Counted from the first letter of the stretch, positions 49,570 to 59,691 are shown. The stretch: 64,000 nt of DNA from Verrucomicrobiota bacterium (GCA_016222805.1 JACRQG010000028.1:103860-167859); one strand, 5' to 3'. Translations and numbers: made by a program. The notes: generated by a model from the letters alone, not told the origin.

Positions 49570-49644
49570 GCCCTCATCGTCTATCGGTTAGGACAGGAGA
49601 TTCTCAATCTTCAAAGCGGGGTTCGATTCCCCGTGGGGGCGCCA
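49570..49644 (+). tRNA. tRNA-Glu (anticodon CTC), CCA encoded
   Basis: Cloverleaf read by eye: acceptor gccctca/tgggggc, D-arm gtct-atcggtta-ggac, anticodon stem ggaga-ttctcaa-tcttc, T-arm cgggg-ttcgatt-ccccg, then g-cca. Confidence 0.93.
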
Positions 49645-49645
49645 A
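49615..49645 (+). repeat. attL of integrative element (31-bp direct repeat overlapping tRNA-Glu 3' end)
   Basis: agcggggttcgattccccgtgggggcgccaa, identical to 59661-59691. Confidence 0.93.
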
Positions 49646-49651
49646 AATTTC

Positions 49652-49685
49652 AACCCGCAACACTGCAAAGAGTTGCGGGTTTCTT
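49652..49685 (+). terminator. Terminator hairpin just downstream of the tRNA, inside the element
   Basis: aacccgcaac-actgcaaaga-gttgcgggtt followed by tcttg. Confidence 0.7.
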
Positions 49686-49716
49686 GTTGGTCGGAAAGTG
49701 CCAAAAGTCACCATAT

Positions 49717-49730
49717 AGTCACAACACCTG
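49717..49730 (+). repeat. agtcacaacacctg, left copy of 14-bp direct repeat near attL
   Basis: Identical to 59567-59580; each lies about 70-80 bp inside its att core. Confidence 0.75.
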
Positions 49731-49897
49731 CCGGGGTAGTCTACTTGGTTGGGGTGGTTTTCTTGGGACATGAATTGCTTCCGTCTTGGGCTGCTGGGAA
49801 GCTGCGGGGCAGGTGGGTAGCACCGATGGTTTTGTTGGGCTGAGGATTTGCGCCAAAGAGACGGATTACCTACTCAGCTTGCAGCTTCTTGCAGGTG

Positions 49898-50347
49898 TCA
49901 CTTGGGCACCTCGTAGACCTCGATAAGGGCTATGCCGGTAGTGCCGTTAACACCGGTAACGAGGACTGAGTAGTTGCCTGGCAGTAGAGTGGCCACGAGA
50001 GCCGCATCCTTGGAGGTTGAGGGGAGAGTGAATGCGCCAACTCCCGCGAAGACGGAAGCAAGCTCAGGTGTGCCGCCCCAATCGTTGTTTTCACCCAATT
50101 TGGCGGATTTGCTGTCGTAAAGCGCGAGCTGTGGATCGCTCGCTGCTCCGGGCACATGGAAAGCACTCAGGCCGGGGCCGATTGCGCGAACCAGAACCGT
50201 TGTTGGACCGGGGCCTTCGAGGACAAACCCCATGGTTACACCAGAACCTAGATTCTTGCGGACGGAGAGATTGACCAGCCGGGGAGTGGAAGCGCTGAAG
50301 GTCGCCGTTGGAGTCGCGTCGTAAACTTCAGCGAGAACTTTACCCAT
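49898..50347 (-). pseudogene. C-terminal fragment of a verrucomicrobial repeat-domain extracellular protein
   Basis: GFVLEGPGPTTVLVRAIGPGLSAFHVPGAASDPQLALYDSKSAKLGENNDWGG resembles repeats normally found in long secreted proteins; the ORF begins mid-repeat with no signal peptide. Confidence 0.55.
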
Positions 50348-50899
50348 TGCTGGGGTTATCCACCGGCCCCGGGTTCAGTTTCGCCCCGATGGCTTCGGCC
50401 AGTGCCGCCAAGCAGGCTACCCGCGCGGCAACTCCCGTCATCGGACTACCAGGTGACGGTGCTGGAGGTGGCCGCCTCCTCAGTGCAGGTCGAGGAGTTG
50501 ATGGCGATGGAGAGTCGCTGGAAGGAGAAACTTGGCACCCGGGAGTTCGGGCTGAACGCGAACTGAAGGGGTGGGAGTTCGCTGGGGTGAATTTCTTCGC
50601 GCCACAGGTACTGCGAGGTCTGCGACACCCATTTGGGCCACGTGGTCAGGCGTGTCGTGGGGATTCGATGCCTTTCCGCAAGGGTGAGTTGCCGTTTCAG
50701 CGACGGACCCGCCCACTTTACCCCTGAGTCGAGGGTCAACCAGGATCGCAGCTTCGGTCTGGGGGAGGCGACTGGCGCACCACAAACGGAAAGAAGGCGG
50801 CGCCCGGCCGAGCCAATGTCGGTGTGCGATTGAATCGGGCCATGCGGGCACGTTGTTGCTTCCATCCATTCGTGCCGTGACGAGAGCCGGTTCGGCCGT

Positions 50900-56974: not shown

Positions 56975-57724
56975 TCAGTTCGGATCCTGGGAAGGTCGTC
57001 GGATATTCAGGGTCTGGCGCAAGGCACGACGCAATCTGTCGCGAATCCGACTTTCTGGTACGGCTGAGCCCCTTGAGTCCTTTCGGCAGCCTGGCAGATG
57101 TTGGAAGTCTGAGTGCCGCCGGATCTGGTCGCTGGAATAACGCCGCAGGACATCATCCCACATCGCTTCGTCCCAGATGCGGAAGCACTTCTCAGAGCCG
57201 TCGAACCTCGGGAGTTTTTCGAGCGGGCGCAAAGTAGCAATTGGAAGAGGGAACAATTTGGAGGCGAAAGTCGCGCCGAACTCGACGCAGGTGATCGCTC
57301 GAATCACGAAGGAACGAGCCCATTGCACCTCTGGAGTCTTTGCACCCGCTTTGCCGCGTGGGTTCAAGAATGCCTTGTTACCAACTCCCAGATTGCGGCA
57401 GCGCTTGAGCAATAAGCGAACACCAGAAGCCTTCGGAGGCACCAGCATCGGCCAGTTAGCGCGCGCCGATGCGATTGAGCGCAGATGAGGATTGCCTTTG
57501 GCGGCCATGCGATCAAGCGACGCAATCATGAATGTCACGGCACTCATCAGTGCTTCCGCGGCGCTTCTTCCAAATGGTGGCGGGCGGTCTGCCGCCTGTT
57601 CCAGGAAGAGAGCCAAGGCGACTATTCCATCTTTGGCTGCGTCTTGGCTTTCGTTGTTGGGTAGCTGCTCCAACTCGGCAAAATAGCGATGTAATGCGAT
57701 GTCGATTGGGCGCTCTTTTCGCAT
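56975..57724 (-). CDS. Hypothetical protein
   Basis: Open 249-aa frame co-directional with the DNA-binding genes; no family recognised. Confidence 0.55.
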   Translation of the reverse strand: MRKERPIDIALHRYFAELEQLPNNESQDAAKDGIVALALFLEQAADRPPPFGRSAAEALMSAVTFMIASLDRMAAKGNPHLRSIASARANWPMLVPPKASGVRLLLKRCRNLGVGNKAFLNPRGKAGAKTPEVQWARSFVIRAITCVEFGATFASKLFPLPIATLRPLEKLPRFDGSEKCFRIWDEAMWDDVLRRYSSDQIRRHSDFQHLPGCRKDSRGSAVPESRIRDRLRRALRQTLNIRRPSQDPN

Positions 57725-57967
57725 GTTTCAGAGGTGTGAGGGTGAGAGAGGGATGCGAGATATGCAGCAAATTAGATGCGGATTCTTAAATGCTGACTCA
57801 TCCGCATCGAGGGTGACCGAGGGATTCTTCAAGGACCGGCCCACGCTGCGCCAGCGCGCGACTGTCTGATGTAGTGGGATCCAGCCCAAATGCGTTTGGG
57901 CGCGTGATCCAGTCTCGGTGATAGCCGAGTGCCGTGGAACGGTCGACCACGAGCGATTTTGCCAGGG

Positions 57968-58219
57968 CTAGATGCGCCGGCCGGCGTTGATGAGGTCGTG
58001 GGCCGTCTCCCCGGGGGCGAGCGCGAGCCGGGCGCGCAGCGCGCGAATCCGTCGAAATACGCTGTGGTCCACGGGCACCAGTCGGGCGACGGGACGGGAA
58101 TGGCGCGTGATGGTGATCTCTCCATGGCCGCGTTCCACCCAGGTGAGCAACTCAGCCAGTCTGGCCTTCGCCTCACGGGAGCCGACGGTCCGGGAGAGTG
58201 CCACAGGTGGGGAGTTCAT
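57968..58219 (-). CDS. Phd/YefM-type antitoxin-like protein
   Basis: MNSPPVALSRTVGSREAKARLAELLTWVERGHGEITITRHSRPVARLVPVD matches the prevent-host-death fold pattern. Confidence 0.85.
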   Translation of the reverse strand: MNSPPVALSRTVGSREAKARLAELLTWVERGHGEITITRHSRPVARLVPVDHSVFRRIRALRARLALAPGETAHDLINAGRRI

Positions 58220-58343
58220 TTTCTCGATGAAAGTCCTCCCACGAGCGCTGGAGGTCGGTCGCAAGTCAAGGGGCAGTGACCTCCCGCCCTGAACTCATCG
58301 GGACGTCGGGGGACGCCGGCACCATCACGCGTGGTGCCTGGCT

Positions 58344-59534
58344 TCACTTCAGTCCGGGCAATTTCTCCACGGCGTCGCGCAGGGTCTTCAGTTCCACGTG
58401 GGAGTACTTTGCGTTCATGGTTTCGGAGGCGTGGCCGGACAGCTTCATCCGCAATTCCTGGGCGACGCCGCGGTTCATGAGTTCGCTGTTGAAGGAGTGC
58501 CGCAGGGAGTGGAACCCGTACTTGAAAAACTTCCGGCCCGCGCCGGAGCCTTCACGCAAAAGTTCGTTGTCGATCCCGGCCCGCCGCATGACCTCCTGGA
58601 AACGGCGGCTCAGGCCCGTCTTGCCGCCAATCTTCAGGGCGGCCAGTTCCGGCGCCAGAAAGGCCTCGTTCGCCCCCGCGCCGTGGGGCGGGGAAAGGGT
58701 CAGGAGGTGGGCCTCCAGGTCGGCGTGGAGGGGCACGACGAGGTCCTTCGCCTTGCGCGCCGTTTTTTGCGGCCGGAAGGTGATGAGCTTGTTCACTAAA
58801 TCCACGTTCTTCCAGCGCATGTGGACGCAGTCGCTCAAGCGGGCGCCGGTGAAGACGCCCAGCATGATGACGGTCTTCCACTCGCCAACGGCCGCGCCGA
58901 GGAGCGCCTTGACCTGCTCCCAGGTGAAGGGGGAGCGGTTTTCACCGGCTTGCTCGGGCAGGACGACGGCGGCGGCGGGATTCAGGCGGCAGAGGCCCTG
59001 GCGGGTGGCGCGGCCAAACACGACGCTCAGGATCTTCGCCTCCATGCGGACGGAGGTGGCGCTCTTTCCGGTGGCGGCCTGCCGGTCCACGTACTCCTGG
59101 ACGTCGGCCACGGAGACGTCGTCGATTGGGAGTTGGGCGCGGGGCCCGAGCTGGTCCAAAAAGCCCTTCACGACGCGCTGGTAGCGGTCCCAGGTGTTGG
59201 CGGCGCGCTTGCCCTGCACGGCCGCGACCCAGTCCAGGAGGACCTTTTCGGTGCGGTTTTCCTCCATGCGGCGCCGGTTCACGCGTTGGAAGATATCCTG
59301 CATCACGTGGCGGATCTGGTTTTCGGTGGGGTGGCCGCGTTCGAGTTCCTCCCACTTTTCGGCGACCTCCTTGGCGAGGCGGCGATTGCGGGCGGCGTCG
59401 CGCTCGCGGTCGCGCGGGGTGGGGCCTTCGCCGGCGATCCTGACGGCGGTGGACTTGGTGAATTGAATTCCGCGCTGGTCCCGGTAGCAGGCGTACCAGA
59501 AGGGGGAGCGGCGGCATTTGCGGAGGGAGGCCAT
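58344..59534 (-). CDS. int: Site-specific tyrosine recombinase (element integrase)
   Basis: MLGVFTGARLSDCVHMRWKNVD (Arg), HSLRHSFNSELMNRGV (HxxR), LSGHASETMNAKYSHV (H/Y); likely start MASLRKCRRSPFWYACYRD. Confidence 0.95.
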   Translation of the reverse strand: MASLRKCRRSPFWYACYRDQRGIQFTKSTAVRIAGEGPTPRDRERDAARNRRLAKEVAEKWEELERGHPTENQIRHVMQDIFQRVNRRRMEENRTEKVLLDWVAAVQGKRAANTWDRYQRVVKGFLDQLGPRAQLPIDDVSVADVQEYVDRQAATGKSATSVRMEAKILSVVFGRATRQGLCRLNPAAAVVLPEQAGENRSPFTWEQVKALLGAAVGEWKTVIMLGVFTGARLSDCVHMRWKNVDLVNKLITFRPQKTARKAKDLVVPLHADLEAHLLTLSPPHGAGANEAFLAPELAALKIGGKTGLSRRFQEVMRRAGIDNELLREGSGAGRKFFKYGFHSLRHSFNSELMNRGVAQELRMKLSGHASETMNAKYSHVELKTLRDAVEKLPGLK

Positions 59535-59566
59535 GGCGAAAAAGGGCCCAAAAAGTTGCTCCAAAA

Positions 59567-59580
59567 AGTCACAACACCTG
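59567..59580 (+). repeat. agtcacaacacctg, right copy of 14-bp direct repeat near attR
   Basis: Identical to 49717-49730. Confidence 0.75.
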
Positions 59581-59660
59581 GCGGTGGTTGCCAAGGTTAT
59601 TGTGGTCACCTTCCCTCGTAGAACGTAACGAAAAAGCGGTTACAAAGGGGCAAAATACCG

Positions 59661-59691
59661 AGCGGGGTTCGATTCCCCGTGGGGGCGCCAA
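59661..59691 (+). repeat. attR of integrative element (tRNA-Glu 3' fragment)
   Basis: agcggggttcgattccccgtgggggcgccaa identical to 49615-49645; no tRNA 5' half upstream. Confidence 0.93.

Follow-up and report, generated by a model that had tools for sequence, protein, structure and literature searches.

A compact, satellite-like integrative element in a tRNA-Glu(CTC) gene of a Verrucomicrobiota bacterium

Results

The tRNA target and the ends of the element

The analysed window is a 64,000-nucleotide stretch of a genome from the phylum Verrucomicrobiota, the host family of which was taken as Opitutaceae. It contains an intact tRNA-Glu(CTC) gene on the plus strand (49570-49644, ARAGORN), and a pattern search for a 31-bp direct repeat returned exactly two copies in the window, on the same strand and with no mismatches. 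One copy (49615-49645) coincides with the 3' end of the tRNA gene, and the other (59661-59691) lacks the tRNA 5' half, in agreement with the first-pass annotation, which had proposed exact 31-bp att repeats at an intact tRNA-Glu and at a distal position. The distance from start to start is 10,046 bp. Shuffled sequence yielded no match to the repeat, even with three mismatches permitted. When a 26-bp core of the repeat was searched for across the 7.9-Mb genome (51 contigs) with up to 3 mismatches, one additional hit came up, the tRNA-Glu(TTC) gene of a different contig.

Both copies are followed by a strong terminator-like hairpin and T-rich sequence. The hairpin behind the tRNA gene (49652-49683, plus strand; folding energy -17.9 kcal/mol, z = -4.1) would come from the element, while that behind the distal copy (59697-59726, plus strand; -14.8 kcal/mol, z = -2.9) is interpreted as the terminator that the tRNA originally had; thus, the tRNA would retain a terminator when the element is integrated. 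Inside the ends lies a further exact repeat of 14 bp, AGTCACAACACCTG, situated 71 bp inward from the left att copy (49717-49730) and 80 bp inward from the right one (59567-59580), in both cases on the plus strand. When 1987 pairs of 150-bp pieces were drawn at random from the window, a match as long as this was present in one. The pair is arranged as arm-type integrase sites are on either side of an attP core, which makes the two copies candidates for such sites and ties both ends to one element. The GC content of the island (0.62) is intermediate between that of the left (0.68) and right (0.61) flanks, hence the right boundary is not marked by composition.

Most same-genus genomes carry the same tRNA-Glu(CTC) gene (95-100% identity), and no relative retains the flanks at this site. 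Neither an empty attB nor a second copy of the element was found in the genomes compared (one genome per species), because each species is represented by one genome and conservation of gene order does not extend to the flanks of tRNA-Glu(CTC). In one genome of the same genus (G003; locus L088, G003:C202, 9536-11793), tRNA-Glu(CTC) is accompanied by a second att copy 2.2 kb downstream, with no integrase, and the ORFs beside this pair read like antitoxins. We consider this locus a decayed element at the same tRNA-Glu(CTC) site, so the site has been reused.

The integrase and its relatives

A tyrosine integrase is encoded on the minus strand just inside the distal att copy, as the first-pass annotation had stated (58344-59609; Pfam Phage_integrase, E = 2.7e-15; PHROG 1 integrase, E = 4.5e-45). 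Alignment with relatives beginning with MASLRK or MASIYQ places the likely start codon, an ATG, at about 59534. The distance to the distal att is 52 bp from the start of the ORF, or approximately 127 bp from the likely start.

The annotation had also suggested a search for related islands with the same integrase. Homologous integrases (30-39% identity) are present in 19 of 95 relatives, the genome under study being counted in. Twenty integrase loci were read, and at 15 of them a fragment of a tRNA T-arm and 3' end lies approximately 50-230 bp upstream of the integrase; several different tRNAs are involved. The whole geometry, with the fragment beside the integrase and the intact tRNA far off, is seen in tRNA-Glu(TTC) in two relatives. 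In G002 (G002:C69) the fragment is near 6.0 kb and the intact gene at 75.4 kb, approximately 69 kb apart; in G032 (G032:C7) the positions are 104.4 kb and 168.2 kb, approximately 64 kb apart. With the integrase as query, named genomes and viral contigs yielded no confirmed relative.

The island resembles tRNA-targeting tyrosine-integrase islands and prophages of Opitutaceae (G030, G010, G002, G032, G060) in the integrase family, in the att copy at a tRNA 3' end with the integrase beside the distal att, and in the gene order integrase, accessory gene, winged-helix gene. It differs from them in that the integrase identity does not exceed 39-40%, in that the two tRNA-Glu(TTC) relatives are approximately 64 and 69 kb long versus 10 kb here, and in that at least one member of the group (G030) has an ORF reading like a tape-measure protein.

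The minus-strand module

The integrase is followed on the same strand by a gene for a Phd-type antitoxin (57968-58264; NCBIfam phd_fam, E = 4.7e-13), behind which no readable toxin frame was found. The next gene (56975-57724) encodes a protein of 249 aa that belongs to the integration module as an accessory component; its C-terminal third recurs in the integrase-adjoining protein of G060. It is followed by a gene for a small winged-helix protein of 104 aa (56592-56906), relatives of which follow homologous integrases at four other loci (G060, G080, G020 and G030), one of them weakly matching Pfam HTH_17. Given this position, the small protein is probably an excisionase (recombination directionality factor).

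The last gene of the block encodes a helix-turn-helix (HTH) protein (55684-56595), a putative replication initiator or regulator. The longest ORF extends to 56676, and translation probably begins at the ATG at 56595, which is preceded by GGAGG and overlaps the stop codon of the upstream gene (ATGA). A small ORF at 55434-55715 was considered as a relative of the ORF following the HTH gene in the G190 provirus described below and was rejected as not significant, 18 of 500 shuffles scoring as well.

The gene order of the module is common to G060, G030, G080 and G020. In G060 the genes that come next encode an HTH_36 protein and a DnaC-like loader, so the block in the island is a phage-type integration and replication module.

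The cargo half

By position, the plus-strand genes of the left half are cargo. The first of them (50900-52114) encodes a 404-aa protein with an N-terminal DUF429 domain of the RNase-H-like family (Pfam, E = 3.6e-16) and a C-terminal helical domain with an RNHLAH motif. The protein matches the PADLOC candidate-defence family PDC-S44 (E = 7.9e-14), which makes a possible defence role a lead only. DUF429 relatives align to residues 1-230 only; for the C-terminal part no relative was found in 119 other genomes of the family, and the fusion of DUF429 to the RNHLAH-motif domain is absent from the DUF429 relatives in the family. In the predicted structure (mean pLDDT 44) the C-terminal domain alone is well predicted, and no significant fold match in the PDB was obtained; given this and the low pLDDT, a HEPN-type reading of RNHLAH would stand at the level of the motif only.

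The two further cargo genes encode a membrane protein with a nuclease-related NERD domain (52290-53165; Pfam, E = 3.8e-14) and a Gly-rich coiled-coil protein, probably secreted, with a C-terminal M23 peptidase domain (53422-55146, start inferred; Pfam Peptidase_M23, E = 2.7e-11). Closer to the left end, the minus strand holds a fragment (49898-50347) that looks like the C-terminal part of the large surface proteins found in these bacteria and is probably a remnant; it is 43-45% identical to long proteins of relatives at their C-terminal ends and has a weak NCBIfam match. With remnants in its left third, the element may be decaying.

Virion, packaging and transfer genes

Among the main ORFs of the island, no virion, terminase, relaxase or conjugation/T4SS family was detected with Pfam, PHROGs, NCBIfam and PADLOC, which bears out the earlier statement that conjugation and phage structural genes are not evident. 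Six-frame translation of the island, searched with hmmsearch --max, also yielded no match to the double-jelly-roll (DJR) capsid (profile A2, best E = 1.8) and none to the A32/FtsK-type packaging ATPase (profile A3, best E = 1.3).

The HTH gene and tailless proviruses

Beyond the account given by the first-pass annotation, the HTH gene proved to be shared with tailless proviruses. Among 252 genomes of the family, full-length relatives of the HTH protein occur in only three other genomes (31-44% identity), and all three are located in proviruses with a DJR capsid protein. A profile of the three proviral capsid proteins matches the capsid protein P2 of PM2 (E = 4.9e-12) and a solved DJR capsid (E = 2.3e-19), and the capsid genes adjoin a P-loop packaging-type ATPase. 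One of these proviruses, in G190, is bounded on both sides by a 23-bp exact tRNA-Val repeat, the copies being 12.8 kb apart; its integrase gene and HTH gene occupy opposite ends, and the integrase matches that of the island weakly (E = 4e-4).

DJR capsid genes were found in 14 of the 252 genomes, at 18 loci (among them L176 in G190:C49, L175 in G258:C47, L173 in G112:C220, and L169 and L171 in G105:C1), three of which have the HTH gene; none of these genes is in the host genome or its genus. At three of the 18 loci, direct repeats of a tRNA or tmRNA delimit proviruses of 12.8-16.2 kb. Very divergent verrucomicrobial proviruses of Vinavirales have been reported (Yutin et al. 2022, PMC9502842). 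Compared with PM2-like proviruses of Verrucomicrobiota (PMC9502842; Yutin et al. 2018, PMC5894146), the island shares the HTH gene with three Opitutaceae members, integrates at a tRNA and is of similar size; it differs in lacking virion genes, those for a capsid protein and a packaging ATPase included.

An early conclusion that the HTH protein is virus-specific was dropped after a class-wide search, which met distant relatives of its C-terminal domain in other Verrucomicrobiota, outside DJR proviruses; the gene is therefore not strictly viral. In G605 such a relative is adjacent to ORFs whose sequences suggest ParA and a VirD4-type ATPase, and G286 (L187-L191) encodes five protein copies with HTH_36-like repeats and a C-terminal domain with the motif HWDNCK. 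A further candidate relative, L139, obtained from viral contigs with the HTH alignment, was rejected as spurious, as the match fell within a terminase-like ORF of a tailed-phage contig.

The neighbouring integron

Also outside the earlier account is a chromosomal integron that starts 0.4 kb beyond the right end of the island (60073-64000). It comprises an integron integrase (60073-61437; TIGR02249, E = 4e-111) and a cassette array with attC-like sites at approximately 61811-61954, 62872-63014, 63590-63734 and from 63974 to the window end, the bottom strands folding with z = -5.8, -2.7 and -5.4; the contig ends within the array. Related IntI genes are present in 33 of 95 relatives. In another member of Opitutaceae (G045; L074, G045:C1, 7430-10448), a relative of the island's tyrosine integrase lies approximately 0.5 kb from an integron integrase, as in the window. 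This was not accepted as a recurring integron-island arrangement, since there is no tRNA fragment at that locus.

Discussion

We regard the locus, with considerable confidence, as a 10,046-bp site-specific integrative element in tRNA-Glu(CTC), satellite-like in kind and made up of a phage-type module and cargo. The view of the first-pass annotation that the repeats bound an element of approximately 10 kb gained from the arm-type repeat, the duplicated terminator and the relatives with the same placement of the integrase at tRNA 3' fragments. On this view, the attP core of the element matches the final 31 bp of tRNA-Glu(CTC) exactly, and the tyrosine integrase would recombine it with the chromosomal gene. 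The tRNA would thereby be rebuilt with the 3' copy and the terminator of the element, and its original 3' end would come to lie at the opposite end of the insert. The genes of the minus strand (integrase, Phd, accessory, excisionase-like and HTH) would then serve integration, excision and replication control, with the DUF429, NERD and M23 genes riding as cargo, and a helper virus or plasmid would carry the element between cells in the manner of phage satellites. Excision, mobility and helper transfer are parts of this model that we infer, and the functions of the excisionase-like and HTH proteins are likewise putative, being assigned by analogy.

The annotation had left the choice between a mobilisable and a satellite-type island. 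The latter fits the gene content, as there is no capsid, packaging ATPase, terminase, relaxase or conjugation gene; an island with neither virion nor conjugation genes would have to ride another virus or plasmid for any movement from cell to cell. It has the set expected of PICI- and P4-like phage satellites, an integrase, a putative regulator or excisionase and putative replication genes without virion genes. Compared with satellites of this kind (PMC10111431, PMC11773190), the 10-kb size, the integrase, the excisionase-like and replication-like genes, the cargo and the absence of virion genes are similar, whereas no helper, packaging-redirection gene or packaging site has been identified, and the island matches none of the named satellite families. 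The mobilisable half of the claim gained no positive support. That a conjugative helper moves the element through an oriT is distinctly improbable: in G605 the distant relative of the HTH C-terminal domain does lie beside putative ParA-like and VirD4-type ATPase-like ORFs, but the island has no relaxase or T4SS family. That the locus is the product of two insertions unrelated to each other, or of a tRNA 3' end duplicated by chance, is scarcely credible: an arm-type repeat is present at either end and the integrase adjoins the distal one, which favours one element, even if the G003 locus, with a second att at tRNA-Glu(CTC) 2.2 kb downstream and no integrase, demonstrates reuse of the site.

The link to tailless viruses allows for two more alternatives. 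The island could be a decayed tailless DJR provirus (PM2-like, Vinavirales) in which cargo took the place of a deleted virion module. Full-length HTH relatives are confined to three PM2-like proviruses among the 252 genomes, and such proviruses too use tyrosine integrases and tRNA sites, the one in tRNA-Val of G190 being of similar size (12.8 kb). However, capsid and ATPase leave no trace in the island, its integrase module is closer to tailed-type and other islands than to the G190 provirus integrase (E = 4e-4), the HTH gene is present at just three of 18 DJR loci, and its C-terminal domain has distant relatives in other contexts; hence we consider this origin unlikely. Alternatively, the element could be a satellite parasitising tailless, membrane-containing PM2-like viruses of Verrucomicrobiota and sharing the HTH replication or regulatory gene with its helper. 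The same confinement of HTH relatives, the alike tRNA sites and size, and an anatomy of integrase, excisionase-like gene, replication-like gene and cargo with a candidate defence gene would fit; yet the evidence is thin, with one gene in common, no packaging signal is known, and the host genome and its genus have no PM2-like provirus within the sample, so that we rate this relationship as very improbable. No paper on satellites of tailless, membrane-containing DJR bacterial viruses was found in the literature searched.

The island is thus an ordinary, satellite-like mobile element of a known kind, the unusual feature being its one link to tailless viruses. Its boundaries and anatomy are now fixed for a compact element in a little-studied phylum, and the tRNA-Glu site is shown to be reused. 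Should the HTH gene shared with tailless proviruses prove to be a functional link, the question would arise whether tailless viruses, too, have satellites.
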